Assembly (NCBI RefSeq): GCF_001020985.1
Contig: NZ_CP011542.1
Span: 1,798,001 to 1,862,000, forward strand
Reading direction: 5' to 3'
Source: Corynebacterium mustelae
Lineage (GTDB): Bacteria; Actinomycetota; Actinomycetes; Mycobacteriales; Mycobacteriaceae
Length of the DNA: 64,000 nt
Made by a program: the position numbers and the translations under genes
Notes under the pieces: generated by a model
Told to the model about the DNA's origin: nothing
What the model saw: the letters and a program-made list of their open reading frames with translations, nothing else
The model's database searches: none
Shown here: positions 2,021 to 59,252 of the stretch, one piece after another
Position numbering within the stretch: position 1 is the first letter of the stretch
Layout: every line of letters begins with the position of its first letter

Positions 2021-4114
2021 GTGACTCTCTCCCCGGAACTTGCTGCCCACACGGTTCGGAACTATCCCAGCGACTGGACTGAGCTAGACACAAAAGCCAT
2101 CGACACCGCGCGTATTCTTGCTGCGGATGCGGTGCAGAAATGCGGATCGGGCCATCCTGGTACCGCAATGTCATTAGCTCCACTTGCTTATTTGCTTTAC
2201 CAACGAGTAATGAACCATGATCCAGCTGACACTAAGTGGGCAGGTAGGGACAGATTTGTTTTGTCCTGTGGACATTCCTCATTGACCCAATATGTCCAGC
2301 TATTCTTGGGAGGCTTCGGGCTAGAGCTAGATGATATTAAGGCTCTACGTACCTGGGGTGCATTGACCCCCGGGCACCCTGAATATCGTCACACCGATGG
2401 CGTTGAAATTACCACCGGACCGCTGGGTCAAGGCTTAGCTTCAGCAGTCGGCATGGCAATGGCTGCGCGCAGAGAGCGATTCCTATTTGATCCAGAATCT
2501 CCCACCGGTGAATCTCCATTTGACCACTACATTTATGTGATCGCTTCAGACGGCGATTTAGAAGAAGGTGTCACTTCAGAGGCAAGTTCCTTGGCAGGGA
2601 CTCAAGAACTCGGCAATTTGATCGTTTTCTGGGATGATAACCGTATTTCCATTGAAGAGGACACACAGATTGCTTTTACAGAGGATGTTTGTGCTCGCTA
2701 CGCTGCATATGGCTGGCAGGTTTTGGAGGTCGAAAGCGGTGAGGACATCGTAGCGTTGGAAGCTGCCATTGATAAAGCGCAGGCCGAGACTAGCCGACCA
2801 TCGTTTATCCGTGTGCGCACCATCATCGGTTATCCAGCGCCAACCATGATGAATACTGCAGCAGTTCACGGTGCTGCCTTAGGTGCTGAAGAAGTTGCCG
2901 CCACCAAGAAAGAGTTGGGTTTCGATCCAAGCGTCGATTTTCCAATCACCGATGAAGTTCTGACACACACCCGACAATTGAAAGAACGTGGTCGGCAAAA
3001 ACATGCCGAATGGCAGACGAAGTTTGATGCTTGGGCTGCGCAACATCCTGAACAAAAGAAACTCTTTGACAGGCTTGCCACTCGCAGCTTGCCGAAAGAC
3101 TTCGATGCCGATCTCCCGGTGTGGGAAACCGGCGACAGCATTGCTACTCGCAAAGCTTCGGAAGCAACGATTCAGGCGTTAGCAGCAGTGTTACCAGAAT
3201 TCTGGGGCGGCTCCGCTGATCTCGCTGGTTCGAACAATACCGTTATCAAGGGCGCACCTTCTTTCGGCCCTAGGAGCATTAGTACCGACGCTTGGCAAGC
3301 AGAGCCGGGTGGCCGGAATCTTCACTTCGGCATCAGGGAGCATGCGATGGGGGCTATCGTCAATGGCATTTCCCTTCATGGTGGCACTCGTCCATACTGT
3401 GGTACGTTCCTGATTTTCTCTGACTACATGCGACCAGCTGTACGTCTAGCTGCTCTCATGGAGACAGACGCCTACTACGTGTGGACTCACGATTCCATCG
3501 GCCTTGGCGAGGATGGCCCTACGCATCAACCTGTTGAGCAACTCGCTACTTTACGAGCAATCCCAAACATGTCAGTTTTGCGTCCGGCTGATGCTAATGA
3601 AACCGCTGCAGCATGGCGAGCAGCCTTGCTGTACAAAGAAGGCCCTAAAGGTATCGCCCTTACCCGCCAAAATGTCCCGGTTCTTTCGGGTACCAAGGAA
3701 AAAGCCAAGGAAGGAGTAGAAAAAGGAGCCTACATTCTAGTCGAGAGCTCAACTGAGATTCCTGATGTGATCATCATGGCTACCGGTTCTGAGGTTCAAT
3801 TAGCCGTTGCAGCAGCGGAGCAGCTTGAAAAAGATGGAATTGGAACCCGAGTTGTGTCAGTTCCTTGCCTCGATTGGTTTGAAAAACAAGATTCGGAATA
3901 TCAAGAAACCGTTCTTCCGACCGCCGTAACAGCGCGCATCTCCGTGGAAGCAGGTTTGGCTTTGTCTTGGTATCGGCACCTGGGTTCGCGTGGTCGCGCG
4001 GTTTCGTTGGAGCACTTCGGTGCTTCTGCTCCATACCAAAAGCTTTTCGACGAATTTGGTATCACGGTTGATGCAGTTGTCCAAGCTGCACACGATTCGC
4101 TTGGTGCGAATTAA
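2021..4114 (+). CDS. tkt: Transketolase
   Basis: Transketolase moves two-carbon units between sugar phosphates in the non-oxidative pentose phosphate pathway, using thiamine diphosphate. The 697-residue length is normal. The N-terminal domain shows KCGSGHPGTAMSLAPLAY with the catalytic His and the cofactor motif SDGDLEEGV. The middle pyrimidine-binding domain has GIREHAMGAIVNG and THDSIGLGEDGPTHQPVEQL, and a C-terminal transketolase domain follows. The start is a GTG with AGGACGG ten bases upstream. It is the first gene of tkt-tal-zwf-opcA-pgl. One GCTTTTCGACG oligomer lies near its 3' end. Confidence 0.97.
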   Translation: MTLSPELAAHTVRNYPSDWTELDTKAIDTARILAADAVQKCGSGHPGTAMSLAPLAYLLYQRVMNHDPADTKWAGRDRFVLSCGHSSLTQYVQLFLGGFGLELDDIKALRTWGALTPGHPEYRHTDGVEITTGPLGQGLASAVGMAMAARRERFLFDPESPTGESPFDHYIYVIASDGDLEEGVTSEASSLAGTQELGNLIVFWDDNRISIEEDTQIAFTEDVCARYAAYGWQVLEVESGEDIVALEAAIDKAQAETSRPSFIRVRTIIGYPAPTMMNTAAVHGAALGAEEVAATKKELGFDPSVDFPITDEVLTHTRQLKERGRQKHAEWQTKFDAWAAQHPEQKKLFDRLATRSLPKDFDADLPVWETGDSIATRKASEATIQALAAVLPEFWGGSADLAGSNNTVIKGAPSFGPRSISTDAWQAEPGGRNLHFGIREHAMGAIVNGISLHGGTRPYCGTFLIFSDYMRPAVRLAALMETDAYYVWTHDSIGLGEDGPTHQPVEQLATLRAIPNMSVLRPADANETAAAWRAALLYKEGPKGIALTRQNVPVLSGTKEKAKEGVEKGAYILVESSTEIPDVIIMATGSEVQLAVAAAEQLEKDGIGTRVVSVPCLDWFEKQDSEYQETVLPTAVTARISVEAGLALSWYRHLGSRGRAVSLEHFGASAPYQKLFDEFGITVDAVVQAAHDSLGAN
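4042..4052 (+). repeat. 11-mer GCTTTTCGACG, copy 1
   Basis: Exact copy inside tkt, about 60 bases before the stop; it encodes the LFD of KLFDEFG. Confidence 0.7.
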
Positions 4115-4127
4115 TCTTTTGGATACT

Positions 4128-4153
4128 AGCTGCAACCATATTCGGTTGCAGCT
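4128..4153 (+). terminator. Hairpin between tkt and tal
   Basis: A perfect 10-bp stem (AGCTGCAACC / GGTTGCAGCT) with a six-base loop, ending 35 bp before tal. Only a short TTT follows, so it probably acts as a leaky terminator or mRNA stabiliser inside the operon rather than a full stop. Confidence 0.55.
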
Positions 4154-4188
4154 TTGACCACTTATTTATTAAAGAAAGCTGCTACGTT

Positions 4189-5271: not shown

Positions 5272-5290
5272 CAGCGGTTTTTATTCTCGT

Positions 5291-5316
5291 GTGCCACCGG
5301 TTTCCGTCGGTGGCAC
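5291..5316 (+). terminator. Hairpin between tal and zwf
   Basis: A perfect 9-bp stem (GTGCCACCG / CGGTGGCAC) with an eight-base loop starts 19 bp after the tal stop and is followed by AT-rich sequence ending in TTTT. It could end some transcripts before zwf. Confidence 0.5.
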
Positions 5317-5358
5317 GTACATTACATTTTAGGTTCTTCTTTTTCACAACCTGTAGGA

Positions 5359-6927
5359 TTGGCTGACGTGAGCAATCAAGAGGAAGCACAATTTTCCACC
5401 ACAACCATCTGGGATAACCCACTGCGGAATCCCTCAGATAAGCGACTCCCCCGGATCGCAGGCCCATGCGGCATGGTCATTTTCGGTGTAACTGGCGACT
5501 TGGCACGGAAGAAACTCCTCCCTGCGATTTACGACCTAGCAAACCGAGGTTTGCTTCCGGCCGGATTCCCCCTTGTTGGATACGGGCGTCGAGATTGGTC
5601 CAAGTCCGATTTCGAGGAATATGTACTCACAGCCGTCAAAGCTGGCGCCCGGACGGAATTCCGGGAAAACGTTTGGCTTCGGTTGGCTGAAGGCATGCAT
5701 TTTGTCAAAGGAAATTTCGACGATGACGCTGCATTTGACAGTCTTGCTGCGACCTTGACAGAGCTAGATGAATCCCAAGGCGCTGCTGGCAATTGGGCAT
5801 TTTATCTGTCAGTACCTCCTGATTTCTTCTCAGACGTGTGCCACCAACTGCAACGAAGCGGTATGGCGACCGCACCGGAACATGCTTGGCGACGAGTTAT
5901 CGTCGAAAAGCCTTTTGGGCACAACCAAGAAACCGCACATCAGTTAAACAACCTCATTAATTCGGTGTTCCCGGAAAAGTCGGTCTTCCGTATCGACCAC
6001 TACCTTGGTAAAGAAACGGTGCAAAATATCATGGCTCTCCGTTTCGCCAATCAACTTTTCGACCCACTTTGGAACAGCCACTACATTGACCACGTCCAAA
6101 TTACAATGGCCGAAGACATAGGTCTTGGCGGGCGAGCCGGGTATTATGACGGAATTGGTGCGGCACGTGATGTGATTCAAAACCATCTTATTCAGCTGCT
6201 AGCGCTTATCGCCATGGAGGAACCCATTGATTTCACCCCTGCGGAGCTCCAGGCGGAGAAGATCAAAGTTTTACGTGCAACCTCGCCCGTGAAACCATTT
6301 GCTAAAACTACTGCTCGAGGGCAGTACGCGGCTGGTTGGCAAGGCTCCGAGTATGTTAAAGGTCTGCGAGAGGAGGAGGGTTTTGACCCGGACTCCGCCA
6401 CTGAAACCTATGCTGCCTGCACGCTGGAGATCAATTCACGGCGTTGGGCGGGCGTTCCGTTTTATCTTCGCACCGGAAAGCGTCTTGGTCGCCGAGTCAC
6501 GGAGATCGCTCTTGTTTTCAAAGATGCACCGCATCAACCTTTTTCTGAAGGATCCCGACATGCTCAAGGTCAAAATGTAGTGGTCATTCGGGTGCAGCCA
6601 GATGAAGGAATGCTTATGCGCTTTGGCTCAAAGGTGCCCGGCTCGGGTATGGAAGTTCGCGATGTGAACATGGATTTTAGCTATACAGAAGCATTCACAG
6701 AGGAATCACCTGAGGCATACGAGCGACTCATCCTAGATGCATTGCTGGACGAAGCTTCACTCTTCCCAACGAATGAGGAAGTCGAATTGTCCTGGAAGAT
6801 CCTCGATCCCGTCTTGGAGTATTGGGCTAATCACGGCCGTCCCGATGAATATCCGGCAGGAACTTGGGGGCCGGAATCAGCTGATCGAATGCTAGCGCGG
6901 TTTGGCCGCACTTGGCGTCGTCCCTAA
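5359..6927 (+). CDS. zwf: Glucose-6-phosphate 1-dehydrogenase
   Basis: Zwf oxidises glucose 6-phosphate to 6-phosphogluconolactone with NADP, the entry step of the oxidative pentose phosphate pathway. The nucleotide-binding loop is FGVTGDLARKKLLPAIYDL (about residues 40-58). The active-site block is RIDHYLGKETVQN, and VIVEKPFGHN precedes it. The C-terminal half is nearly identical in pattern to the C. glutamicum enzyme. The open frame begins with TTG at 5359; a GTG at 5368 (VSNQEEAQ) with AGGATTGG upstream is an equally good start. It is followed at once by opcA, whose product is required for activity in corynebacteria. One 11-mer copy lies in the VEKPFG codons. Confidence 0.97.
   Translation: MADVSNQEEAQFSTTTIWDNPLRNPSDKRLPRIAGPCGMVIFGVTGDLARKKLLPAIYDLANRGLLPAGFPLVGYGRRDWSKSDFEEYVLTAVKAGARTEFRENVWLRLAEGMHFVKGNFDDDAAFDSLAATLTELDESQGAAGNWAFYLSVPPDFFSDVCHQLQRSGMATAPEHAWRRVIVEKPFGHNQETAHQLNNLINSVFPEKSVFRIDHYLGKETVQNIMALRFANQLFDPLWNSHYIDHVQITMAEDIGLGGRAGYYDGIGAARDVIQNHLIQLLALIAMEEPIDFTPAELQAEKIKVLRATSPVKPFAKTTARGQYAAGWQGSEYVKGLREEEGFDPDSATETYAACTLEINSRRWAGVPFYLRTGKRLGRRVTEIALVFKDAPHQPFSEGSRHAQGQNVVVIRVQPDEGMLMRFGSKVPGSGMEVRDVNMDFSYTEAFTEESPEAYERLILDALLDEASLFPTNEEVELSWKILDPVLEYWANHGRPDEYPAGTWGPESADRMLARFGRTWRRP
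5901..5911 (-). repeat. 11-mer GCTTTTCGACG, copy 2 (inverted)
   Basis: Exact reverse-complement copy inside zwf; read on the + strand it encodes the VEK of VIVEKPFG. Confidence 0.7.
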
Positions 6928-9226: not shown

Positions 9227-11989
9227 TTACCCAGAATTACGTAGTGCTGTGGCTAGTCCATTCATTGTCAAGCGTATGCAATAGCCAACATTTTCGTTTT
9301 CTGATCCGTCACGGTATCGCCGCAGGAGTTCCAACTGGATGACGTTAAGTGGAAGCAGATACGGATAGCGGCGCCGAACCGAGCGAGCCAACTGCGGGTT
9401 ATCTGCCAGTAGATTATTTGCACCTGTGATGGCAAAAAACATCTCTTGGGTTAGGGCGAATTCTTCAGTAATCGCTCCGAAAATTCGCTGTGCAGCGACT
9501 TTGTCGGGTACCAGATGGGAGTAGAGTTCCGCCAGGGTCAATTCAACCTTGCTCATGACCTGCGCCATATTCGATAGCACAGAATTGAAGAACGGCCAGG
9601 TACGATAATATTCCTGCAATTGTCGAAGTTTGGTTTCAGAATCCCCATCAGAGTGAATCCAGTTGTAGAGTGCGGATCCCATTCCGTACCAGCCAGGTAG
9701 CATTACCCGAGATTGCGACCACGATAGAACCCATGGGATCGCTCGTAAATCGGAAATTGCGGTTGTCTGCTTCCGTGCTGTCGGCCGGGAACCTATGTTG
9801 AGCGCACCGATCTCAGCCAGTGGTGTTGATGAAGTGAAATATTCAATAAACCCAGGGTCATCATGCACTAGTGCAGAATATTTTTCCCGACTCAACCGTG
9901 ATAATTCTCGCATAACTGCATATGCTTCGGTTTCTGTTTCCGCGAAATCTTCGACTTTTAATAGAGACGCTTCCAGTGTCGCTGAAACCAAAGCCTCTAA
10001 ATTACGTCTAGCGGAATCGATGGATCCATATTTGGCTGAGATGATCTCCCCTTGTTCCGTAATCCTAACAGCTCCTTGAACAGCGCCTTGTGGCTGTGCG
10101 AGTAGCGCCTCGTATGAGGGGCCACCGCCTCGCCCCACCGTTCCGCCCCTACCGTGGAACAGTCGAAGCGCAATATCGTATCGTTTACTCAAGGAAACGA
10201 GATCCAGTTCGGCGTCGTAAAGCGCCCAGTTAGCTGCAAAATAGCCGCCGTCTTTATTGGAGTCGGAATAGCCAAGCATGATTTCTTGTCGATCACCGCG
10301 TTGACGCAAATAATTGCGGTATAGCGGAATCTGCCATAGCTTTTCGACGATACCCGCGCCTGAACGCAAATCTTCAATCGTTTCGAACAGCGGAATCACA
10401 TCCACCGTGCCACCGGGGTTGTCGCCATCAGGTTGGATTAAACCAAACTCAGCCAGCAGTAGCATTGCCTCTAATACATCTGAAACGCTTTGTGCCATTG
10501 AAATAATGCTGTGAGGCACCATCTCTGGCCCAAAGAATTCGACCGCCCGTTTTGCCTCTGCCAACAAACCTAGCTCCCGTTGCGTGGCTTCGCTAAACGG
10601 CAACGTATCACGTGAAATCAGCGGACGCGGGCTCTTCAATTCTGCAACAAGCAGTGCTACTTTTTCGTCTTCAGTAAGACTCCGGTAATCCGGATGTACG
10701 TGAGCATGGGCGAAGATCTCAGTAATAAAGTCCTCGTAACTTTCTGAGTTCTGGCGTAAATCCATTCCATATAGGTGGAAACCAAAGGTTGCGATTGCTA
10801 TACGGATTCGAGCCAACCGGTCATCAGCAATTAGGTCATCATTGCTAGACCGCAGAGAATCGTCAATAATCTGGAGATCGTCGAGTATTTCTTGCGGATC
10901 CGTATAAGGTTTGTGGGCAGTAAACCAAGTCCCCTCCACCGCTGCCCCACCAATCAACTCGGCTAAAGTCGACATCACTCTGCCTCGAATGCCATGCACT
11001 GCTCGACGATAAGGCTCATCGACTCGGGAGGGGATGTCGTTGAAGCCGAGCTCCGCTAAAGAAAGTAACTCATCAGTCACTGTGGAAAGACGGTCTGAAA
11101 GCGATAGCTCATGCTCTAATTGGTGCAGTTCAGAAACGTAATACTTTAGTGCTGTTTCTGCGGCTCGGGTTGTTGCATAGCGTAGCGTGCTGGCCGTGAC
11201 ATAGGGATTTCCATCATGGTCGCCACCGATCCAGGAGCCCGGCTTGATAATTGCGTTTAACTCGTCGTCTAGTCCGAACTGCTCATTCAGTGCCTTATTT
11301 ACTGATCTGTTGATCTCCGGAATAGCTTTCAACAGCGAAAGCTTGTAATAACGTAACCCCACTTCAATTTCATCCTCAATGCGAGGCCGGGCTACCCGGA
11401 TAAGCGCGGTCTGCCACAGTAGCGTCATCCATCGTCTAATCTGGCGCGAAATCTCTTCGATTCGGCTATCAGTGAGCGCATTCTTTGGCGCTGCCAGAAT
11501 CTGGTGACGTTGTTTCAGCAATTGTGTGATGTGTTCCTGAACGTCAAAAACAGTTCGGCGACGTGTCTCCGTAGGGTGGGCAGTTAAAACTGGTGCCACC
11601 TGCGCATTTTTTAAAAGGGTTGCGACCGTTGTCGGTTCCACCTCACTGGATTCAAGCTTGCGCCACGTGGCATCAAGACTAGAGTCAGGTGCTGGAATTC
11701 CAGCCTCCCGGTCGGCAAGGTACGCGGTAGTATCATGCAAATCCTCGGCGAGATTTGCCAGCAAGGCAAAATGGTTAAAAGCGCGGGCTATAGGCAACAA
11801 TTCTTCGGCCGATCGCGTGTGGAATTGCTCCACCAAGACGTCAATTGAACAATTACCCTTAGCAACTTCAAAGGCCAATTGTCGCGCGGTTTCAACACGT
11901 TGAAACACTTCGTCGCCTTCTTGGTCCGCAATTACATTGCCTAGTAAGCTACCCAAATACCGGATATCGTCTTTTAACTGATCTATCAT
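9227..11989 (-). CDS. ppc: Phosphoenolpyruvate carboxylase
   Basis: Ppc carboxylates phosphoenolpyruvate to oxaloacetate, the main anaplerotic reaction in many corynebacteria. At 920 residues it is full length. Visible motifs are the catalytic-His block VLTAHPTETRRRTVFD (about residue 135), SWIGGDHDGNPYVTA, LDLRQNSESYEDF, the glycine-rich loop FHGRGGTVGRGGGPSYEALLAQP, and RAIPWVLSWSQSRVMLPGWYG. The C terminus MNGLATALRNSG ends in the conserved Asn-Ser-Gly. It lies downstream of tpiA-pgk-gap and is separated from tpiA by a strong terminator, so it probably has its own promoter in 11990-12050. One 11-mer copy encodes VEKLW. Confidence 0.97.
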   Translation of the reverse strand: MIDQLKDDIRYLGSLLGNVIADQEGDEVFQRVETARQLAFEVAKGNCSIDVLVEQFHTRSAEELLPIARAFNHFALLANLAEDLHDTTAYLADREAGIPAPDSSLDATWRKLESSEVEPTTVATLLKNAQVAPVLTAHPTETRRRTVFDVQEHITQLLKQRHQILAAPKNALTDSRIEEISRQIRRWMTLLWQTALIRVARPRIEDEIEVGLRYYKLSLLKAIPEINRSVNKALNEQFGLDDELNAIIKPGSWIGGDHDGNPYVTASTLRYATTRAAETALKYYVSELHQLEHELSLSDRLSTVTDELLSLAELGFNDIPSRVDEPYRRAVHGIRGRVMSTLAELIGGAAVEGTWFTAHKPYTDPQEILDDLQIIDDSLRSSNDDLIADDRLARIRIAIATFGFHLYGMDLRQNSESYEDFITEIFAHAHVHPDYRSLTEDEKVALLVAELKSPRPLISRDTLPFSEATQRELGLLAEAKRAVEFFGPEMVPHSIISMAQSVSDVLEAMLLLAEFGLIQPDGDNPGGTVDVIPLFETIEDLRSGAGIVEKLWQIPLYRNYLRQRGDRQEIMLGYSDSNKDGGYFAANWALYDAELDLVSLSKRYDIALRLFHGRGGTVGRGGGPSYEALLAQPQGAVQGAVRITEQGEIISAKYGSIDSARRNLEALVSATLEASLLKVEDFAETETEAYAVMRELSRLSREKYSALVHDDPGFIEYFTSSTPLAEIGALNIGSRPTARKQTTAISDLRAIPWVLSWSQSRVMLPGWYGMGSALYNWIHSDGDSETKLRQLQEYYRTWPFFNSVLSNMAQVMSKVELTLAELYSHLVPDKVAAQRIFGAITEEFALTQEMFFAITGANNLLADNPQLARSVRRRYPYLLPLNVIQLELLRRYRDGSENENVGYCIRLTMNGLATALRNSG
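10340..10350 (+). repeat. 11-mer GCTTTTCGACG, copy 3
   Basis: Exact copy inside ppc (a - strand gene), giving VEK in IVEKLWQ. Confidence 0.7.
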
Positions 11990-15904: not shown

Positions 15905-15915
15905 CGTCGAAAAGC
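15905..15915 (-). repeat. 11-mer GCTTTTCGACG, copy 4 (inverted)
   Basis: Exact reverse-complement copy in non-coding DNA, 33 bp downstream of the whiA stop. Confidence 0.7.
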
Positions 15916-19040: not shown

Positions 19041-19109
19041 TTAGCTTTTCGACGCCCCCAGCGGCATGACCATTTGTTATAGTCCACCGAATAACCGTCG
19101 AAAAGCTAA
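19041..19109. repeat. 14-bp inverted repeat made of two 11-mer copies
   Basis: The arms TTAGCTTTTCGACG (19041-19054) and CGTCGAAAAGCTAA (19096-19109) are perfect complements separated by 41 bases. Each arm contains an exact copy of the 11-mer: copy 5 at 19044-19054 (+) and copy 6 at 19096-19106 (-). The right arm covers the uvrC stop codon and the left arm lies 14 bp above the first possible rapZ start codon at 19027. The loop is long for an intrinsic terminator and no T-run follows. Confidence 0.8.
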
Positions 19110-23866: not shown

Positions 23867-25399
23867 TTAAGAATTTTCATTCTTCCTTAGTACTGCGAAA
23901 AACATAGCGTCGGTGCCGTGTCGGTGTGGCCACATCTGCACTGATTTGTGCTCACCTGTTTTAGGCATCCCACCGCTAAGTTCCGCTGCATCTAGCTCTT
24001 CTATAGGCAATAGTTTGACCGCTTTATCCACAATAGCTCGGGTTTCGCGTAGATCTGGTGAACAGGTGGAATATACAATCACGCCACCCGGCCTAGTCAT
24101 GGCTACTGCTGATTCAAGTAATTCATATTGCAAGACTGCCAAATCAGCGATATCCGATTCTTGTTTGCGCCAACGTGCCTCCGGCCGACGACGCAACGCC
24201 CCCAGTCCGGAGCACGGGGCGTCGACAAGCACGCGGTCATAGCCCGGTGTCAACGTTAATTTCCTGCCATCTTGATTATGTACAGTTACCGGTAAACCTG
24301 AGACGGTCTTTCTAATCAGTTCTGCACGATGCGGCTGAATCTCAACAGCATCGACGCTGGCGCCGTCGATACGTGCCAGGCAACCAATGAGCGCGGCCTT
24401 GCCTCCAGGGCCAGCGCAAAGATCAAGCCATCGCCCGTTATCGGTTCCAATAACCGGTGCTTCGACTAAGGCTCGGCCGATTATTTGTGACCCTTCGTCT
24501 TGGACTGCTGCAAGTCCGTCACGAACCGCTTCCAGCCTGCCAGGATCCCCACCGGGAAGGTATACCGCGTAAGGTGAGTATTTTCCTTCTTCACCTTCCG
24601 TCATCAATGCAAGTTCTTCGGCAGTGATCTCTCCGGGTCGTGCAACAAGATGAACCGCGGGGCGCCGGGAATCTGCCTCTAGTGCCTCAGCTAATTCACC
24701 AATTCCGAGTACCTTGGCAAACGACTCCGCTATCCATTCTGGGTGCGAATGTTTAAATGCAATCGCTGGTATCTCGCCAACTGGTCGTAGTTTTTCGAAC
24801 CATTTTTCAGGGGTGGTGCGGGAAATTTTTCGCATCACTCCATTTGTGAACCCTTTGGCTTTTTCTTGCCCAATCGCGTCCACTAGATTAACGGTTGAGT
24901 CGACCGCAGCATAGTTATCAACCCGAGTGTAAATGAGTTGATAGGTTCCTATCCTCAGCGCGTTGAGTACTCCAGGATCAATGTCTGTGAGCGGTCGAGT
25001 GGCTGAAGCTGCGATTATCTTATCTATTACACCTTGGTTTCTTAACGTCCCATAGGCTATCTCAGTTGCAAATGCTGAATCTCGGCGTTTGATTTTGAAA
25101 TCCCGCAGCATTTTCGGCAACACAAGGTTTGCATATGCGTCTTGGGTATCGACTCGATACACAACGTCGAAGGCAACAGCCCTGCCGAGGTCAATCGTAT
25201 TGAGTTGACGTGGGTCACCGCCTGGTTGGTATTCGGTATGGCGTGGTTGCTTGTGCCGCGCTTGGCGATTCGACTTGCCATGGCCATTGTTTGCTTTACG
25301 ACGGTTATCGGGCGCATGCTCTGGTTTTCCATCTTTTTTATTTGACCGCGATCGGAACCCACCACTTGCAGCCAATCCGTGACTATTTTCAGTTGTCAT
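23867..25399 (-). CDS. rsmB: 16S rRNA (cytosine-967-C5)-methyltransferase
   Basis: RsmB (Fmu/Sun) methylates C967 of 16S rRNA using S-adenosylmethionine. A basic, low-complexity N-terminal stretch (about 55 residues, rich in Lys/Arg/Asn/His) is followed by a NusB-like RNA-binding domain (RRDSAFATEIAYGTLRNQG). The methyltransferase follows: LDLCAGPGGKAAL for the cofactor, the catalytic VDAPCSGLGALRRRPEARW, and a second cysteine in YSTCSPDLRET. I start it at ATG 25399, which overlaps the fmt stop (ATGA); the frame is open to 25441. It follows fmt and def on one transcript. Confidence 0.94.
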   Translation of the reverse strand: MTTENSHGLAASGGFRSRSNKKDGKPEHAPDNRRKANNGHGKSNRQARHKQPRHTEYQPGGDPRQLNTIDLGRAVAFDVVYRVDTQDAYANLVLPKMLRDFKIKRRDSAFATEIAYGTLRNQGVIDKIIAASATRPLTDIDPGVLNALRIGTYQLIYTRVDNYAAVDSTVNLVDAIGQEKAKGFTNGVMRKISRTTPEKWFEKLRPVGEIPAIAFKHSHPEWIAESFAKVLGIGELAEALEADSRRPAVHLVARPGEITAEELALMTEGEEGKYSPYAVYLPGGDPGRLEAVRDGLAAVQDEGSQIIGRALVEAPVIGTDNGRWLDLCAGPGGKAALIGCLARIDGASVDAVEIQPHRAELIRKTVSGLPVTVHNQDGRKLTLTPGYDRVLVDAPCSGLGALRRRPEARWRKQESDIADLAVLQYELLESAVAMTRPGGVIVYSTCSPDLRETRAIVDKAVKLLPIEELDAAELSGGMPKTGEHKSVQMWPHRHGTDAMFFAVLRKNENS

Positions 25400-30502: not shown

Positions 30503-31759
30503 TTAGTTTAATGCAGTGTCCAGGGTTAGCTTTTCGACGGCATCAAGGATGCGTGCTGCCACTTGATGTTTGGTTCCAACTGGAATTTCCGTTACGTTTC
30601 CTAGAGCATCAATCAAGAAACCTTCGTTTTCAGGTTTCCCAAAAACCTTGTCATCGCCGACTTCATTACACATAAGGAGGTCGCAGCCCTTTTTAGCGAT
30701 CTTTGCTCTAGCGTAGTCAAGAGCTGAATACTGATCATCTCCTGTTTCCGCTGCGAAACCGACAATCGAGGTTGCTAAAGAAATATCTCCAGCTTCACGC
30801 AGTTCAACCAAGCCTTTGAGAATGTCTGGATTTTCCACCAACTGAATGTGCCGTAGACCGCCCTCAGTTTCGTGCCCCTTCTTCATTTTTGTTGTAGCAA
30901 CTTCCTCAGGCCGGAAATCAGCTACCGCCGCCGCCATGACAATGATGTCCATATCGGGTGCTAAATCACACACAACACTTTGCATTTCACGGGCTGATCG
31001 CACGGAAATCACCTCCGCTCCGCTTGGGGGTAACAGTTTTTCAGTTGCCGCTGCAACGATGGTTACCCTTGCCCCTCGATGGGCAGCAATTTCGGCCAGG
31101 GCATAGCCTTGTCGGCCAGAGGAGTGGTTGCCGATAAACCGCACCGGGTCGATTGCCTCGCGAGTTCCACCTGTGGTTACTAAGACTCGCTTATCAGCCA
31201 AACTTTGCTGTAGGCTCTCCCCCGCTGACACCACCCGCGCTAAATCTGCAATTTGCTCCGGCTCAGGAAGTCTGCCCGCCCCCGTATCCTTTCCTGTGAG
31301 ACGGCCGTGTGCTGGGGCCAAAACAGTGATACCTCGACTGCGTAACGTCGCAACATTTGCTTGCGTGGCTGGGTTTTCCCACATTTCGGTATGCATCGCA
31401 GGCGCTAAAACCACTGGGCAGGTAGCAACCAAAATCGTGGCGGCTAGCAAATCATCAGCCCGGCCGGCGGCTACCCGTGCTAAAAGGTCTGCCGTAGCAG
31501 GTGCAACAACAACAAGATCCGCATTTTGTCCAATGTGGACGTGGCGAACTTCATCCACCGCGTCAAAAACACTAGTTGATACTGGATTTCCGCTAAGCGC
31601 TTCGAACGTTGCCTTACCGACGAAATTCAACGCTGCTTCTGTCGGAACGACTTTTACGTTGTCGCCCGCCTCGGTGAAATTTCTAATAAGATGACACGCT
31701 TTATATGCAGCAATGCCGCCAGACACGCCTACAACAACATTTCGGTTTTTTTGATCCAT
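30503..31759 (-). CDS. coaBC: Phosphopantothenoylcysteine decarboxylase / phosphopantothenate-cysteine ligase
   Basis: This bifunctional enzyme (formerly Dfp) performs two steps of coenzyme A synthesis. The N-terminal flavoprotein CoaC domain (about residues 1-190) has VVGVSGGIAAYKACHLI and the catalytic-loop VLAPAMHTEMWENP. The C-terminal CoaB domain has LVTTGGTREAIDPVRFIGN, HSSGRQGYALAEIA and MAAAVADFRP. I use ATG 31759 (418 aa) rather than the frame limit at 31780, because homologues begin near MDQKNRNVVVGVSGG and GGGA lies just upstream. It follows rpoZ and precedes metK. An 11-mer copy lies 26 bp before its stop. Confidence 0.96.
   Translation of the reverse strand: MDQKNRNVVVGVSGGIAAYKACHLIRNFTEAGDNVKVVPTEAALNFVGKATFEALSGNPVSTSVFDAVDEVRHVHIGQNADLVVVAPATADLLARVAAGRADDLLAATILVATCPVVLAPAMHTEMWENPATQANVATLRSRGITVLAPAHGRLTGKDTGAGRLPEPEQIADLARVVSAGESLQQSLADKRVLVTTGGTREAIDPVRFIGNHSSGRQGYALAEIAAHRGARVTIVAAATEKLLPPSGAEVISVRSAREMQSVVCDLAPDMDIIVMAAAVADFRPEEVATTKMKKGHETEGGLRHIQLVENPDILKGLVELREAGDISLATSIVGFAAETGDDQYSALDYARAKIAKKGCDLLMCNEVGDDKVFGKPENEGFLIDALGNVTEIPVGTKHQVAARILDAVEKLTLDTALN
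30529..30539 (+). repeat. 11-mer GCTTTTCGACG, copy 7
   Basis: Exact copy in the last codons of coaBC (VEKLTLDTALN). Confidence 0.7.
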
Positions 31760-33598: not shown

Positions 33599-34444
33599 TT
33601 AAGCACTTTTTTCCGGATAGTCCTTCGCCGCCGAGGTTACCGCAGCGGCGAGTTTCTCGGTATTTGGGCCGACTTTCAAGATCTCCCGCGACATATTGGG
33701 AAACGCCCATGCGTTAGCCTCTTTGGCAATCCGGGCCACGTCAGCTGCATCGGCGCCTTGGGCACCGACACCAGGCATAAGAACCGGGCCATTAAGCCCC
33801 GTGACATCTGGCACCTGCTTAAGCGTTGCTCCTATCACGACGCCGACGTACCCAAATACTCTTGCTGCCTTATACGGCGCATTGCATGCCGAGGCTTCCG
33901 CAACCATCAGTTCATCCAGCCGCTCACCGCTGGTAGTGATGCTGCTTTGGACTTGACGTCCTTCTGGATTCGACGTCGCCGCGAGCACGAAAATTCCGCG
34001 ACCAGTAGCTTTCGCCAACTCCAGGGCAGGCTGCAACGAACCGAAGCCCAAATATGGCGAAACCGTGACTGCATCGGAACACAACGGTGATTCATCCGCC
34101 AGCCAGGCTCTGGCATAGGCGGCCATGGTGGAGCCGATGTCGCCCCGCTTCGCGTCGGCCAAAACCAGGGCACCCTGCGCACGCAGGTCTTGGATCGTCT
34201 GCTCCAAAACTGCGTACCCGCCTGAGCCAAACGCCTCATACATCGCTACCTGCGGTTTTACCAAGGCAGCTGTAGAGCCAAAGGCAGCAACACAGATTTC
34301 TGAAAATGTTCGCAGCCCCATCAGATCCACGCTAAGACCCCAGTTTTTCAAAAGCTCTGGGTGCGGATCAATTCCCACACATAGCCGACCGCGACGCCGG
34401 GAAACGTCGAAAAGCCGCTCCCCAAAAGTTTCACGTTCGCTCAC
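33599..34444 (-). CDS. pyrF: Orotidine 5'-phosphate decarboxylase (type 2)
   Basis: PyrF makes UMP from orotidine monophosphate, the last step of the pathway encoded by this operon. The 281-residue length and the spacing of motifs fit the long subfamily 2 of mycobacteria and corynebacteria: RLCVGIDPHPELLKNWG at the N terminus, and the catalytic ALVLADAKRGDIGSTMAAYA with DxKxxDI. A late VMPGVGAQGAD binds phosphate. It starts 4 bp after the carB stop. An 11-mer copy lies in its first codons (RLFDVS). Confidence 0.96.
   Translation of the reverse strand: MSERETFGERLFDVSRRRGRLCVGIDPHPELLKNWGLSVDLMGLRTFSEICVAAFGSTAALVKPQVAMYEAFGSGGYAVLEQTIQDLRAQGALVLADAKRGDIGSTMAAYARAWLADESPLCSDAVTVSPYLGFGSLQPALELAKATGRGIFVLAATSNPEGRQVQSSITTSGERLDELMVAEASACNAPYKAARVFGYVGVVIGATLKQVPDVTGLNGPVLMPGVGAQGADAADVARIAKEANAWAFPNMSREILKVGPNTEKLAAAVTSAAKDYPEKSA
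34405..34415 (-). repeat. 11-mer GCTTTTCGACG, copy 8 (inverted)
   Basis: Exact copy near the start of pyrF (RLFDVS), on the coding strand of that gene. Confidence 0.7.
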
Positions 34445-42548: not shown

Positions 42549-43934
42549 ATGAGCCTCGTAACCAGCCACATCGTCCCAGGTTCCCGCGAAGAAGTGTGGA
42601 ATTGGCACACTCGCCCTGGCGCTGTAGACAGGCTAACACCGCCGTTTTTTCCTTTTACGCCCATTCAGGCAACTACAGATTTGGCTCAGGGAACTACTAT
42701 ATTTTCGTTACCTGCTGGTTTACGGTGGGAGGCCCGCCACGACCTTTCCGGTTACGTTAAGGGCTTTCGGTTCACCGATGTTTGCGTAACCGCTCCTATC
42801 CGCGCATTGGCAAATTGGCGCCACAGCCATGAGTTTTGCGAGGTAGACGTCGATGGGGCTCCGGCAACTAGAATCACGGATGAGGTACGAACTCGGTTGC
42901 CAAAAGCATCACTTGCGCCGATGTTCGCGTATCGGCAGCAACAATTGATTCACGATATTCAAAAAATGGCGGAATTTGCGGAGATATCGAACAAACCGCT
43001 GCGGTTTGCAGTCACTGGTTCGCGGGGTCTTGTGGGGCGGGCATTGGTTGCCCAACTGACCACGTTGAGCCACAGTGTGGTTCGGTTGGTTCGTGAGAAA
43101 CCCGAAAAGGTGAATTCTGATCCTAACGCCATTCTATCGGAGCGGTTTTGGGATTCTGCTCATCCTGATCCACAGCTTCTAGCCGATGTTGATGTATTGG
43201 TTCACTTAGCCGGTGAACCCATTTTCGGCCGTTTCAACGATGCACACAAGAAAGCACTTCGAGATAGCCGCGTAGGACCAACGGCCCGGTTGGCCTCGTT
43301 GGTTGCAGATTCAGCCCGATGCCACGTCATGGTGTCGGCCTCAGCCATCGGATTTTATGGTTTTGATCGTGGCGATGAAATTCTCACAGAGGAATCTAGC
43401 TCAGGGTCGGGATTTTTGGCTGAGTTAACGCGCGATTGGGAAGAGGATTGTGCACCAGCAATATCCGCGGGTAAGCGAGTCGTTGTTGTTCGTACTGGAG
43501 TGGTATTGAGCACGCGAGGTGGGATATTGCCAGTTTTGCGGACAGTATTTTCTACTGGTCTGGGGGGAAGATTTGACGATGGTGGCGCATGGTTTTCGTG
43601 GGTGTCATTAGATGATTTGACGGATACGCTGATTCGGGCATCGCTGGATTCCAGGCTAACCGGTCCGGTTAATGCGGTGTCCCCTACTCCGGTAACAAAT
43701 GCTGAAATGGTTCAGGCCTTAAGTGCGCAGCTACGACGACCCGCGCGGTTTCCAATTCCTGCTCTCGGCCCCAAAGTGTTATTGGGGGCACAAGGCGCAG
43801 AGGAATTGGTGTTAGCCTCGCAGAAAGCTATGCCTGGGCGATTGTTAGAACTAGGGCATAAGTTCCGATATCCGACGATTGAACAGGCACTGGCGCATGA
43901 GTTAGGCGGGGAAAGGCTTTTCGACGCCACCTAG
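42549..43934 (+). CDS. START-like domain fused to a TIGR01777-type NAD-dependent epimerase
   Basis: The N-terminal part (about residues 1-150) is a polyketide cyclase/START-like ligand-binding domain (SHIVPGSREEVWNWHTRPGA ... FRFTDV). From about residue 153 comes a short-chain dehydrogenase domain: AVTGSRGLVGRALVAQL (NAD loop), DVLVHLAGEPIFGRF, MVSASAIGFYGF and VVVRTGVVLSTRGGILPVL, the signatures of the SulA-like/TIGR01777 family (YfcH). The same fusion occurs in other corynebacteria and mycobacteria; its substrate is unknown. I start at ATG 42549 with AGGA six bases upstream (461 aa). An 11-mer copy ends 8 bp before the stop (RLFDAT). Confidence 0.88.
   Translation: MSLVTSHIVPGSREEVWNWHTRPGAVDRLTPPFFPFTPIQATTDLAQGTTIFSLPAGLRWEARHDLSGYVKGFRFTDVCVTAPIRALANWRHSHEFCEVDVDGAPATRITDEVRTRLPKASLAPMFAYRQQQLIHDIQKMAEFAEISNKPLRFAVTGSRGLVGRALVAQLTTLSHSVVRLVREKPEKVNSDPNAILSERFWDSAHPDPQLLADVDVLVHLAGEPIFGRFNDAHKKALRDSRVGPTARLASLVADSARCHVMVSASAIGFYGFDRGDEILTEESSSGSGFLAELTRDWEEDCAPAISAGKRVVVVRTGVVLSTRGGILPVLRTVFSTGLGGRFDDGGAWFSWVSLDDLTDTLIRASLDSRLTGPVNAVSPTPVTNAEMVQALSAQLRRPARFPIPALGPKVLLGAQGAEELVLASQKAMPGRLLELGHKFRYPTIEQALAHELGGERLFDAT
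43916..43926 (+). repeat. 11-mer GCTTTTCGACG, copy 9
   Basis: Exact copy in the last codons of the START/epimerase gene (RLFDAT, then stop). Confidence 0.7.
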
Positions 43935-45100: not shown

Positions 45101-46000
45101 TTACTCGTCAGCCGCTGTTTCTGTATCTGGTAGGAGGGCCCGAACGCGTTGATCACTTCTTAAGCTATCATCGTTCGACGCTACCTCTGTTTGAGTGACA
45201 ACCTCTTTTTCTAACTCGGACGCACCAGATGCCTCACCAGACTGTTCCAACTCTGATTCTTCGCAGGTCTCCGGTAGACCGATGACAGCCTCTGCCTCAT
45301 TGAGAGAAGCTGCCGCAGTGGTAGATTCGTCACCGTAGCGATCTTCTGCGTCGGTAATTGTTGTTTCTGCAACCGCGAGTGCTTCTTCGAAAGACACATC
45401 AGAAAAATCGTCAAAGTCATCGTCTAGCTTTTCGACGTCGTGTGGCGGCTTATTGTCTACACCAGTGACGGTCTCGGATTCAGCTTCGGATTCGTCGATA
45501 GGCTCCGGTATAGGAGAACGTAGTTCATCAATATTTTTTAGCGCCGAGTCTAACACTGCGTTGATATATCCTGGTGCGGTGGCACCGGAATACTGAGCAG
45601 CCATTTCGATCGCTTCAGTCATCGCTGTTTTTAAGGGCACATCTTCGTTGAAGATCATTTCCCACACAGCCACCCGGAGGATTGCCCGATCTACAGCTGA
45701 GATGCGGTGTAGCTCCCAATCTTCGGAAAGATAGGCTGCAATGACATCATCAATGCGATTAAGTTCTTCAGCTGCGCCAGCGATTATCTCCCGAGTATAG
45801 GCCGCGACCGGTGCAACAATAGATTCATCGATTCGAGCCAAATTTACTCGGTCTTGCACGATAGCTACCGGATCGACGTCGCGAGCTTCAGCTTCGTACA
45901 AGATGTCGACAGCACGGCGGCGTGCTTTGAAGCGAGAGCCGTGCCGTTTCCAGTTTTTCGCCTGGTTGCGAGATGAGTTAGATGAATTATTATCGGCCAC
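45101..46000 (-). CDS. nusB: NusB transcription antitermination factor with long acidic tail
   Basis: NusB binds boxA RNA with NusE and supports rRNA transcription antitermination. The NusB fold covers about residues 20-165: [58 protein letters not shown] and [15 protein letters not shown]. It is followed by about 130 residues very rich in Asp, Glu, Ser and Thr ([17 protein letters not shown] and so on) that look unstructured. C. glutamicum NusB is longer than enteric NusB but, as I recall, shorter than this one. It starts 2 bp after efp. An 11-mer copy lies in the tail (DVEKLDD). Confidence 0.92.
45427..45437 (+). repeat. 11-mer GCTTTTCGACG, copy 10
   Basis: Exact copy inside the acidic tail of nusB (DVEKL). 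Confidence 0.7.
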
Positions 46001-46773: not shown

Positions 46774-46784
46774 GCTTTTCGACG
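46774..46784 (+). repeat. 11-mer GCTTTTCGACG, copy 11
   Basis: Exact copy in non-coding DNA between pepQ and efp, 50 bp past the pepQ stop. Confidence 0.7.
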
Positions 46785-46833: not shown

Positions 46834-47925
46834 TCAGATGATCAGAAGGTCCTTTGGTAGCCGCGTTAGATTGTCGGCAACACCACTTGTAATCAACAAT
46901 GTATCCTCAATGCGCACTCCCCCTTTGCCCGGAACATAAATACCCGGTTCGATGGTTAACGTCATATTCTCTGCTAATTCCCCACTACCAGTAACCGCCG
47001 CCCACGGTGCTTCGTGGACATCTAGGCCAATCCCATGGCCGGTAGAGTGAACAAAGTATTCGCCATAACCAGCGTCGGTTATAACATCGCGGCATGCTTT
47101 GTCGACGTCGACAAGCTGGGCTCCGGGCACCGCAGCTGCACAGCCAGCCAATTGTGCCCGGAGTACAATGTCGTAAATTTCTTTGACAAAATCGGAAGCC
47201 TCGCCCACCACAACAGTACGCGTGGTATCAGAGTTAAAGCCTCGGTCATGCGCACCGAAATCAATAGTGACTAAATCTCCAACCTCAATCACCCGATCGG
47301 TTGCGCTATGGTGCGGTTTAGCGGAATTTGGACCGGAAGCAACAATCGTGTCGAAGCTAGGCCGTTCTGCTCCTTTGATCCGCATCTTGAATTCCAAATC
47401 AGCAGCGATTTCACGTTCAGTACGACCAGCTTGAATAAGCCCGTCATCGATTAATTCCCAGAATGCAGAATTAGCAAGCTCAGCTACCGCACGCAGCCGT
47501 TCACGCTCCAACGGATCTTTTGTTATTCGAATCTCTTCAATCACCCCTGAGATTGGAACCAACGTCACATCTTCACCGCAAGCTTCTTCAAGTTTCTTAA
47601 ACTCAGAAACTGAGACAAAATCTGCCTCGAACCCCACTCGACGCGGCCCCGAAATCTTCGACAATAGAGTTGTTGCGCAGGCGCGCGCATTGATCGCCTC
47701 AATATCAGGCACTTCTTCTGCAATTTGCGTCGTGTACCGGCCGTCAGTAGCGATTAAAGCTGACAGGTCTTTATACACAGTCAACGCTGCATTGGAGCCT
47801 GAAAAACCAGAAAGATACCGCACATGGGTTAGATGAGTTACTAGCATAACGTCCACGCGCTGAGCTGCAAGTTTTGCCGCCAGAGCACGACGCCTAGTTA
47901 AAAATCGAGTATCCGATAAAGCCAC
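46834..47925 (-). CDS. pepQ: M24-family Xaa-Pro peptidase
   Basis: A cytoplasmic metallopeptidase cleaving dipeptides or peptide ends that contain proline. The 363 residues have a creatinase-like N domain (LVTHLTHVRYLSGFSGSNAAL) and a pita-bread catalytic domain with the metal ligands in TIDFGAHDRGFNSDTTRTV, VHSTGHGIGLDVHEAP, TIEPGIYVPGKGG and VRIEDTLLI. GTG start with AAGGA seven bases upstream. It lies between the aro genes and efp, as in C. glutamicum. Aminopeptidase P versus prolidase cannot be told from sequence alone. Confidence 0.93.
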   Translation of the reverse strand: MALSDTRFLTRRRALAAKLAAQRVDVMLVTHLTHVRYLSGFSGSNAALTVYKDLSALIATDGRYTTQIAEEVPDIEAINARACATTLLSKISGPRRVGFEADFVSVSEFKKLEEACGEDVTLVPISGVIEEIRITKDPLERERLRAVAELANSAFWELIDDGLIQAGRTEREIAADLEFKMRIKGAERPSFDTIVASGPNSAKPHHSATDRVIEVGDLVTIDFGAHDRGFNSDTTRTVVVGEASDFVKEIYDIVLRAQLAGCAAAVPGAQLVDVDKACRDVITDAGYGEYFVHSTGHGIGLDVHEAPWAAVTGSGELAENMTLTIEPGIYVPGKGGVRIEDTLLITSGVADNLTRLPKDLLII

Positions 47926-50253: not shown

Positions 50254-51456
50254 TTAGAACTGCAATCGCTTTTCGACGCGGTCAAGGTAGCCACCAATAT
50301 TGCGGTTGGTTTCTGAAAGACTATCACCACCGAATTTTTGCAACACTGCCCGCGCTAAGACCAATGCCACCATTGCTTCTGCCACAACTCCAGCAGCAGG
50401 TACAGCGCATACATCGGAACGCTGGTGGATACCGGTAGCCGGCTGTCCAGTCGCCATGTCAATGGTTTTTAAGGCACGCGGAACGGTAGAGATCGGCTTC
50501 ATAGCGGCGCGCACCCGAAGAGTCTCGCCGTTAGTCATACCACCTTCTAGTCCGCCCGCACGATTAGTGATACGTCGGAGTGTTCCACCGTCTCGCACCA
50601 TTTCATCATGTGCTTCAGATCCTCGCCGGCGAGCTTCCGCAAATCCATCGCCTATCTCAACCCCTTTGATCGCTTGGATGCTCATGACCGCAGCCGCAAT
50701 CTGGGCATCTAATCTATCCTCGGCCGAGATATGAGAACCCAAACCAATGGGTAATCCACTAACAAGCACTTCAACAACTCCACCTAAGGTGTCGCCTTGT
50801 TTCTTCGCTGCCTCAATTTCGGCAACCATACTCGCCTCGGCATCCGGATCAAAAGCTCGGACAGGTGAAGCATCAATGCGTTGAAGATCTTCAAAGGTAG
50901 GTTCGACACCATCAGCAGATTCCGAAGCGCCGATTGAGATGACATGGGAAAAGACTTCCACTCCGAGAGTTTCTCTTAAGAAATTCCGAGCCACCGTTGC
51001 AACTGCCACCCGTGCTGCAGTTTCACGCGCAGAGGCGCGTTCTAATATCGGGCGAGCTTCATCAAGATCGTATTTCAACATTCCAGCAAAGTCAGCATGT
51101 CCGGGACGCGGACGTGTGAGCTTAGCCGCCCGGCCGGAACTCATCGCTGATGCGACTTCAGGATCATCTAAATCGAGAGGATCAGCAGACATGATGGTGG
51201 TCCACTTAGGCCACTCCGTATTCCCAATCATGATCGCGATAGGACTACCCAATGTCTCACCATGGCGCACACCACCCAGTATGGTCACATCATCTGCTTC
51301 AAATTTCATACGGGCGCCGCGGCCGTATCCCAGCCTGCGTCGAGCAAGTTGATACGAAATTTCATCGCGGGTAATCGGCACGCCTGCAGGCATGCGTTCG
51401 AGCAGTGCGACCAACGCTTGGCCGTGAGATTCTCCTGAAGTAGTCCAACGAAGCAT
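50254..51456 (-). CDS. aroC: Chorismate synthase
   Basis: AroC makes chorismate, the branch point for aromatic amino acids, folates and menaquinone, using reduced FMN. The 400 residues begin with [21 protein letters not shown] and contain GRSSxR-type [22 protein letters not shown], a middle [19 protein letters not shown], and [23 protein letters not shown]. It leads the aroC-aroK-aroB-aroQ-pepQ-efp-nusB series. An 11-mer copy lies 14 bp before its stop (VEKRLQF). Confidence 0.97.
50268..50278 (+). repeat. 11-mer GCTTTTCGACG, copy 12
   Basis: Exact copy in the last codons of aroC (VEKRLQF, then stop). Confidence 0.7.
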
Positions 51457-53001: not shown

Positions 53002-53012
53002 CGTCGAAAAGC
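53002..53012 (-). repeat. 11-mer GCTTTTCGACG, copy 13 (inverted)
   Basis: Exact reverse-complement copy in non-coding DNA, 43 bp upstream of the aroE start. Confidence 0.7.
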
Positions 53013-55035: not shown

Positions 55036-55071
55036 AGTGGGCTTTCACATCTATCTAGGTGAAAACCCACT
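55036..55071 (-). terminator. Terminator after alaS
   Basis: Arms AGTGGGCTTTCAC and GTGAAAACCCACT form a 13-bp stem with one mismatch and a ten-base loop, 78 bp past the alaS stop. On the - strand a T-rich stretch follows. Confidence 0.7.
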
Positions 55072-55148
55072 CCCAACTATCAATCAGCTTCACGATGTGA
55101 AGTCATTAATTTCGTGACCGCTGACGAGTTAACTGCATCTACTTAGAT

Positions 55149-57815: not shown

Positions 57816-57899
57816 GACAAACGTCCTTAAATTTTTCGTTACATAATTCGGTGAATCTTTACCAGAGCGTGGGTGGCAACGCACTGGCACACAATTTGC

Positions 57900-59252
57900 T
57901 TACTTTAGCACTTTGCCCCGGATTAATGCGCGTAGCTTGTCGACGACCCCACGTAGCCGCTTCTCATTGCCGTGATCTGAAGGCCGGTAATACTCTACTT
58001 TGCCTAGTAACGTGTCCGGCAAATACTGCTGTGCAATAATCCCTGCCGGATAGTCGTGAGGGTACTGATATTCCACCGCATGACCTAATTGCTTAGCACC
58101 CGAATAATGCCCGTCCCGAAGATGGGGCGGCACTACTCCAGCTTTGCCCGCCCGCACGTCAGCGATAGCGGCATCAATCGCCTTATAGACGGTATTGGAC
58201 TTCGGAGCGGTAGCTAGATAAATTGTGGCTTCGGCTAATGGAATTCGTGCTTCTGGCAAACCGATCAGCTGTGCTGCCTCCGCCGCAGCAACCGCTATTG
58301 ACAGTGCCTGTGGGTCAGCCATACCTATGTCCTCAGCAGCATGCACGATCAACCGGCGGGCAATAAACCTCGGGTCCTCACCTGCCTCAATCATTCGTGC
58401 TAGGTAGTGGACCGCCGCGTCGACATCCGAACCTCGAATCGATTTAATGAACGCTGAGGTCACGTCATAATGTTGATCCCCGTCACGATCATAGCGGACT
58501 ACTGCTCGGTCAATATTTGCACTAATCACATCCCTATCAAGCACTCCACCATCAACGACTGCCTCAGATGCTGCCTCCAAATACGTCAGAGCACGTCTAG
58601 CATCGCCGCCGGATAACGCGACCAATTGGTCAAGTGCTTCAGACGTGACGCTAATGCGATTAGCCAATCCCCGGTCATCGGAAATAGCGCGGTTAAGGAC
58701 GTCCCAGATTGCGCCGTCGTCAAGCGGCTGTAGCTGCAGGAGCAATGACCGCGAAAGTAACGGCGCTACCACCGAGAAGCTGGGGTTTTCGGTGGTAGCC
58801 GCCACTAAAAGTACCGTCCGGTTTTCCACAGCCGCCAGTAATGCATCCTGTTGGGTCTTAGAAAAACGATGGACTTCGTCGATAAAGAGCACTGTACGAA
58901 TCCCATCGATCAACGCCCGCCGTGCCTGATCGATGACTAATCGTACTTCTTTTACGCCTGAATTCAACGCTGATAGACCAACGAACTTGTGGCCAGTTGC
59001 AGAAGAAATGAGCGACGCGATGGTGGTTTTTCCGGTTCCGGGCGGCCCGTACAAAATGATACTCGCTGCACCTGAGCCCTCAATGAGCCGACGAAGTGGT
59101 TTACCGGGCGCTAACAGGTGTTCTTGGCCTGCAACTTCTTCCAGGCTTCTCGGCCGCATTCGCGCCGCCAACGGCGCGTGGGAGCCCACGGTGAAAAACT
59201 CGTTTCTATCACCGCTGCTCCCCTGGGGGGCGTCGAAAAGCGTGTCAGCCAC
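57900..59252 (-). CDS. rarA: Replication-associated recombination protein A
   Basis: RarA (MgsA) is a AAA+ ATPase that acts at stalled replication forks. The 450 residues have an N-terminal [20 protein letters not shown], Walker [17 protein letters not shown], Walker [21 protein letters not shown], sensor 1 [15 protein letters not shown], and the C-terminal tetramerisation region with [18 protein letters not shown] and [16 protein letters not shown]. It lies 5 bp after the kinase-fold gene and 84 bp before alaS. An 11-mer copy covers its first codons (TLFDAPQG). Confidence 0.96.
59231..59241 (-). repeat. 11-mer GCTTTTCGACG, copy 14 (inverted)
   Basis: Exact copy over codons 4-8 of rarA (TLFDA), on that gene's coding strand. 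Confidence 0.7.

Follow-up and report, generated by a model that had tools for sequence, protein, structure and literature searches.

We analysed a stretch of 64,000 nucleotides of the Corynebacterium mustelae genome (the window; C1:1798001-1862000 of 3.47 Mb), through which a short word, GCTTTTCGACG, is scattered in 14 exact copies, 8 on the forward and 6 on the reverse strand. Dinucleotide shuffles of the window contained a mean of 0.07 copies and a maximum of 1. Indeed, GCTTTTCGACG is the most frequent 11-mer of the window, and the next ones, once shifted overlaps are excluded, reach 3. The original prediction, which had been made from the sequence of the window, listed 14 exact copies, and all of them are present, although one had been placed at 10340 instead of 10339. 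Two further 10-base matches that it reported (23355 and 40253) are real as well, both being CTTTTCGACG with the wrong first base. It had also extrapolated to several hundred copies per genome, and the whole genome holds 676 exact copies (341 + 335), as compared with 23 (11 + 12) for the pattern read backwards, which served as the control.

The excess was further assessed in a sample of 464 kb of the same genome, composed of the window and 20 stretches of 20 kb; unless stated otherwise, the counts below refer to this sample. A third-order Markov model predicts 0.6 copies of GCTTTTCGACG and 101 were seen, whereas the coding sequence of 398 sampled genes carries 78 copies against a mean of 1.35 (largest 4) in 20 codon-aware shuffles. 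The excess therefore survives both of the background checks that had been proposed, and chance, Markov composition and codon usage are refuted as explanations of this spelling. The word had been described as a fixed 11-mer, which does not hold. Position 5 is loose (T in 101, G in 48, A in 22 and C in 9 copies) and position 6 is slightly so (G 8, A 6, C 2), with all other substitutions found 0 to 5 times each. Because position 5 is loose, the word is properly written GCTTNTCGACG, which occurs 18 times in the window and 1,242 times in the genome; its general form is GCTTNNCGAYG, with one or two free positions. The flanks had been called unconserved, and a strict pattern is indeed absent from them, but a weak one exists, with T-rich sequence before the word and C-rich sequence after it.

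The copies show no preferred orientation. The GC skew changes sign near 1.7 Mb, and the orientations were 23/23 before this point and 26/29 after it. The same was true for the 132 genomes of the genus introduced below, in which 39,688 forward and 39,636 reverse copies were counted. Chi sites and FtsK orienting polar sequences (KOPS) are also short over-represented chromosomal words, but they are polar with replication; they were rejected because the orientation of the present word is even in both replichore halves and over the 132 genomes, which agrees with their earlier dismissal on the grounds of polarity. Among 22 stretches of 20 kb, which included 20 spread around the chromosome, the number of sites per stretch varied between 3 and 17, and neither confinement to one chromosome region nor exclusion from it, as for matS- or Noc-like sites, was seen in these 22 stretches. 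The coefficient of variation (CV) of the gaps was 0.86, as compared with 0.99 (range 0.88-1.13) for random placement.

For the placement of the copies relative to genes, the latter were called by a simple longest-open-reading-frame (ORF) rule. The 101 T-type copies (those with T at position 5) were distributed over the coding strand (39), the other strand (43) and intergenic sequence (19), where about 10% of the sequence is intergenic. Those within genes occupy all three frames, with a start at the third codon position, read in gene direction, being favoured (51 of 82). When G-type copies were included, 30 of 149 were intergenic, and 30 of 180 when A- and C-types were added too. None of the 31 A- and C-type copies was clearly intergenic and most lie in one frame; they are partly protein-driven. 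Pairs of copies less than 200 bp apart were in opposite orientation in 17 of 21 cases, and some of these form hairpins in predicted folds.

The sites are strongly conserved in G135, an 82% identical relative that is apparently the same genome as G314 (which contains L101, from a metagenome-assembled genome of Corynebacterium sp.). Sixteen of the 18 window sites could be aligned and 15 of these are intact, as are 9 of 10 sites in the region of the Tad genes, giving 24 of 26 in total. By comparison, random 11-mers had the same ten positions intact in 17.6% of cases in the window and 17.9% in the Tad region (5,000 each). The peak of identity in this alignment is 11 bases wide, with a drop to background directly outside the word, and even the loose position 5 was identical at all 26 aligned sites. 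The individual window sites are listed in Table 1.

Table 1. Copies of the word in the window, with their state in G135 and, where compared, in other relatives (G116, G118).
Site	Position	Strand	Remarks
GCTTTTCGACG	4042..4052	+	intact in G135
GCTTTTCGACG	5901..5911	-	intact in G135
GCTTTTCGACG	10339..10349	+	intact in G135
GCTTTTCGACG	15905..15915	-	intact in G135
GCTTTTCGACG, left arm of inverted pair	19044..19054	+	intact in G135; long stem with 19096 in predicted fold
GCTTTTCGACG, right arm of inverted pair	19096..19106	-	intact in G135; predicted fold with 19044
GCTTGTCGACG (position 5 = G)	24220..24230	-	intact in G135
GCTTATCGACG (position 5 = A)	28913..28923	-	intact in G135
GCTTTTCGACG	30529..30539	+	intact in G135
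GCTTTTCGACG	34405..34415	-	intact in G135, changed in G116
GCTTTTCGACG	43916..43926	+	intact in G135 and G118
GCTTTTCGACG	45427..45437	+	not wholly inside aligned stretch
GCTTTTCGACG	46774..46784	+	not wholly inside aligned stretch
GCTTGTCGACG (position 5 = G)	47106..47116	-	intact in G135; altered in four relatives at greater distance
GCTTTTCGACG	50268..50278	+	intact in G135, changed in G118
GCTTTTCGACG	53002..53012	-	only one of the aligned window sites to differ in G135 (T to G at position 6)
GCTTGTCGACG (position 5 = G)	57935..57945	+	intact in G135, changed in G118
GCTTTTCGACG	59231..59241	-	intact in G135

The word is absent or rare in the extra contigs and phages examined. Two further contigs of the assembly, possibly plasmids, of 39,867 and 42,805 bases (82.7 kb) contain 0 sites where 30.3 were expected (P = 7e-14), and the corynephages phi673 and BFK20 contain 1 site in 86 kb.

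Related species, which the original prediction had suggested for comparison, were represented by 201 genomes of the genus, which are part of a larger group, with a threshold of 150 copies per spelling. In 132 of these genomes GCTTNTCGACG was present in at least 150 copies (median 596, control median 13). Another 14 genomes carry 159 to 1,337 copies of a second spelling, GCTTNNCGATG, and at most 117 of the first; GCTTNNCGATG also reaches at least 150 copies in 4 of the 132 first-spelling genomes. This second spelling was first noticed through its over-representation in stretches of G006, and subsequently of G093, G143 and G052, with counts in the four genomes of 43, 20, 39 and 17 against 4.8, 1.85, 4.85 and 1.45, respectively, in codon-aware shuffles. 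A looser form, TTNNCGACGCCA, was raised (at least 90 copies, up to 308) in 9 of the 55 genomes without the main spellings; it is a lead only, because of its overlap with the first spelling and its excess in many first-spelling genomes too. Searches for gapped words in three further groups of genomes revealed no clear signal. In loci of four genomes without the main word (G147, G010, G015 and G065; L025-L028, L041-L043, L047-L049 and L076-L078), a T-rich tract followed by TCGACGCC(A) was observed as a looser signal, with TCGACGCC at 2.4 to 4.3 times the codon-shuffle expectation, and this signal may be a third dialect. The counts of TTNNCGACGCCA in these genomes were 117, 114, 135 and only 33, respectively. 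Outside the genus, in 113 genomes from 30 other genera of the family, counts of the word were between 4 and 147, or roughly 0.2 to 6 times the control.

A change from one spelling to the other was observed between the sister genomes G004 (first spelling) and G006 (second), which are 80% identical and were compared in about 47 kb of alignable sequence. In a small tree, some inner branches of which are weakly supported, G004 falls into a clade otherwise composed of second-spelling genomes and one with neither spelling (G014). When 31 GCTTNNCGATG sites of G006 were aligned to G004, 20 read GCTTNNCGACG, 2 were unchanged and 9 had changed otherwise, as compared with 135 unchanged, 30 switched and 138 other for CGATG outside the word. 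In the reverse direction, 34 sites of G004 gave 20 in the second spelling, 4 unchanged and 10 other, with a control outside the word of 42, 31 and 98, respectively. Fisher tests of switched versus unchanged sites, with the category 'other' dropped, gave p-values of 2e-11 (from G006) and 7e-4 (from G004). In other words, the word is kept at 22 of the aligned G006 sites and its spelling differs at 20 of them. G004 also holds 125 second-spelling copies, a number that most first-spelling genomes do not reach and that would be expected if remnants had persisted.

An uptake-like function is favoured by these observations, because the copies are many and unpolarised, conservation is limited to the word, the extra contigs lack it, the spellings are largely exclusive and the switch was concerted. 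We therefore consider it probable, with odds of roughly two in three, that GCTTNTCGACG is the DNA uptake sequence of a Corynebacterium natural-transformation system. Of the three marker-type functions put forward in the original prediction, the uptake-like one is thus preferred over a site for a chromosome-organising protein and a site linked to methylation or restriction. Competence, uptake bias, a receptor and a drive are what we infer in addition. A putative receptor of the uptake machinery, most plausibly located at or close to the Tad (Flp-type) pilus or ComEA, would prefer word-bearing DNA, and uptake and recombination would therefore involve chromosome fragments of relatives more frequently than foreign DNA. 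With every such recombination event the word would be restored or spread, such that copies accumulate and stay intact by molecular drive, and a shift of the receptor preference in a lineage would lead to genome-wide rewriting of the word into a new dialect. Biased uptake and subsequent recombination would explain the even orientation, the word-limited conservation, the scarcity in the contigs and phages and the one-base change at many sites, the last of which is poorly explained by a function that is selected site by site. That such a process lets a word accumulate without a benefit per copy is described in parts of PMC7811141.

A wider picture, for and against which we see the balance as even, is that of a genus-wide sexual-isolation system, in which uptake, probably via the Tad pilus, reads a short self-tag and genome-wide switches of spelling isolate or reconnect lineages; G004 and its relatives would then represent the state that follows a switch, in which some copies of the other spelling have survived. 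If the uptake reading is true, Corynebacterium exchanges DNA by transformation, and an actinobacterial genus provides an independent case of uptake sequences, complete with dialects and a caught switch, which would mean that the phenomenon evolves repeatedly. It would also offer a natural system for the study of dialect switching, suggest a function for the conserved actinobacterial cluster of Tad and DEAH-helicase genes, and possibly allow the transformation of laboratory strains with DNA to which the word has been added.

Uptake sequences are best known from two Gram-negative families, namely the DNA uptake sequences (DUS) of the Neisseriaceae, in which the pilus is of type IVa, and the uptake signal sequences (USS) of the Pasteurellaceae, which have a core with patterned flanks. 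Several features of DUS and USS recur here: copies in the hundreds to thousands, far above the expectation from composition and codon usage; no strand or replichore bias; scarcity in foreign or newly acquired DNA, as judged from the extra contigs and the two phages; dialects between related species; and a host that encodes DNA-uptake machinery (ComEA, ComEC and a Tad cluster). In PMC3630211 the Neisseriaceae DUS is described as a short word with thousands of copies, with dialects that have a common core. The DUS is read by the pilin ComP. The present word differs from it in sequence and in its actinobacterial host with a Tad cluster, and its role in uptake is a putative one. For the USS, the corresponding parts of PMC5217627 and PMC7811141 mention inverted copies as hairpins, a relatively even spread and fewer copies in newly acquired DNA, all of which resemble our findings; sequence and host again differ, and uptake bias has been measured for the USS and is inferred here. 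The USS is under-represented in coding sequence according to the same parts of PMC7811141, which is true of the present word in C. mustelae only. In Micrococcus luteus, also an actinobacterium, Tad ATPases and ComEA serve transformation, as stated in parts of PMC6667448 and PMC6668835, and homologous genes are present in C. mustelae; the main text of PMC6667448 nowhere uses the term 'uptake sequence'.

In C. mustelae, ComEA (an HHH_3 match, with a weak SLBB match under the cut-off) is encoded next to ComEC. The Tad cluster specifies a TadA ATPase (TIGR03819), a Flp-like pilin (DUF4244), a TadE-like protein (TIGR03816), a second TadE-like ORF (NF041390, under the cut-off) and a DEAH helicase (TIGR03817), and its neighbours are, judged by their position, presumably tadB, tadC, cpaE and topA. 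It should be noted that the NCBI family names in this cluster are still provisional. In the Tad stretches of 19 genomes all genes of the C. mustelae cluster were matched, save the TadE- or TadF-like ORFs, which were not found in the stretches of G192, G053 and G038. ComEA is split over two frames in G013 (L274), and the 90% complete genome G200 yielded neither ComEA nor ComEC. The idea that competence loss explains missing words has only partial support. Among the ComEC matches listed, genomes that lack the word often have a longer open frame (about 650-810 aa) than genomes that carry it (often 470-600 aa), although exceptions occur in both groups; a difference between clades or an additional C-terminal domain may account for this.

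Several observations weigh against an uptake sequence. Neither main spelling was found in 55 of the 201 genomes. ComEC is present in 200 of the 201 genomes and a Tad ATPase match in 198 (over the cut-off in 192), whatever the spelling, and their presence was therefore rejected as a discriminator; the machinery is thus general and the element that confers specificity was not found among the compared proteins. Among residues of the Tad-cluster proteins no convincing dialect determinant emerged, since the columns separating 9 first- from 5 second-spelling genomes were variable and noise-like. ComEA looked promising in a comparison of 8 second- and 13 first-spelling genomes, but the pattern broke when 30 more were added (51 genomes, of which 10 gave no segment), as it is not followed by G142, G052, G072 and G083. 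In ComEC two columns separate the spellings, both in variable positions. No convincing receptor with a sequence that follows the dialect was thus found among the Tad proteins, ComEA and ComEC compared. Moreover, 625 copies persist in G137 (L275), in which no more than an N-terminal part of ComEA was found, and several of the word-less genomes examined have an intact-looking ComEA. The phages' hosts are C. glutamicum strains (one of them listed as Brevibacterium flavum) and not C. mustelae. Four relatives at about 71% identity had the word intact in 1 of 8 site comparisons, four of which concern one site, and there is therefore turnover of sites at greater distance. The intergenic enrichment is limited to C. 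mustelae: 4 of 47 copies were intergenic in G179 and G148 pooled, where 7.7% of the sequence is intergenic, and 2 of 97 for the second spelling, where 6.9% is, with most second-spelling copies being in one reading frame. Close pairs are no commoner than under random placement (21 versus 15.7, range 9-23), and opposite orientation is common in all neighbouring pairs too (114 of 179). Lastly, no report of natural competence or uptake bias in Corynebacterium was found in the openly licensed literature. Within these papers, the statement of the original prediction that no such sequence has been described in Corynebacterium stands. The word is absent from the titles and abstracts matched by an exact-sequence literature search; some of the matches deal with C. 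glutamicum proteins, and primers therein may hold it. The consulted parts of a survey of spaced motifs list CRISPR patterns for three Corynebacterium species, and CGACG is absent from its main text (PMC5217627).

The main alternatives attribute the word to proteins that act on the chromosome. It could be bound by a chromosome-organising or nucleoid-associated protein with a specificity that changed between species, which would agree with the genome-wide and fairly even density and with the strong conservation of the tested sites. However, neither regional bias nor polarity was observed, both main spellings are lacking in over a quarter of the genomes, strong selection would be needed for each of hundreds of copies that lie mostly within genes, and a concerted base change at many shared sites is hard to envisage without drive. 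We therefore regard this as unlikely. A Chi-like recombination signal of an AdnAB-type helicase-nuclease, with dialects that follow changes of the enzyme, appears somewhat less likely still. C. mustelae does have a pair of neighbouring long ORFs that carry PDDEXK_1 domains, as AdnAB would; similar pairs are listed for G004, a first-spelling genome, for G006, a second-spelling one, and for G010, which has neither spelling, and the absence from the extra contigs and scarcity in phages would also fit. Chi sites are polar and short, whereas the present word is evenly oriented with nine or ten specified bases, and AdnAB-like genes occur in genomes both with and without the word.

Self DNA might instead be marked by a methyltransferase or restriction-type target, for which the absence from the extra contigs, the near-absence from two phages and the largely exclusive spellings could be cited. 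Restriction, however, normally leads to avoidance of sites rather than to their excess, and an 11-base asymmetric target with free positions would be unusual, which makes this explanation very improbable. Virtually no weight remains for the view that the excess arises incidentally from codon usage, protein motifs or base composition. The favoured third-codon-position start of T-type copies and the confinement of the A and C variants and of the second spelling mostly to one frame are what this view would predict, but the codon-aware shuffles fall far short of the observed counts for both spellings (1.35 versus 78 for the first, 1.45 to 4.85 versus 17 to 43 for the second), copies in C. mustelae occur on both strands, in all frames and between genes, and the 113 genomes of other genera have only about 0.2 to 6 times the control.

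Some minor observations concern other repeats and segments. Two PDDEXK_1 matches with equal score and ORF length (486 aa) lie on the chromosome (G000:C1:907180-907848) and on a small contig (G000:C3:35986-36654), which suggests a segment common to both. In G106, a region of about 4.5 kb (L072:10517-15026) contains 11 copies of ACTCTGCAAAA, with both orientations represented, and G148 has 10 clustered copies of ACGGCTCGATC, also in both orientations (L039:9923-11316). In G146, 7 copies of GCAGGCCAAA, mostly close inverted pairs about 48 bases apart (L061:2077-2125 and L063:10153-19054), are possibly a different dispersed signal. Finally, 66 copies of TTTTCCCCGCGTGAG are present in C. mustelae at L017:25-4102 (C1 from about 2750025), the first 12 gaps all being 61 bases; the repeat was assembled from overlapping k-mers as about GTTTTCCCCGCGTGAGCGGGGATGTTCC, and the whole is a predicted CRISPR array.

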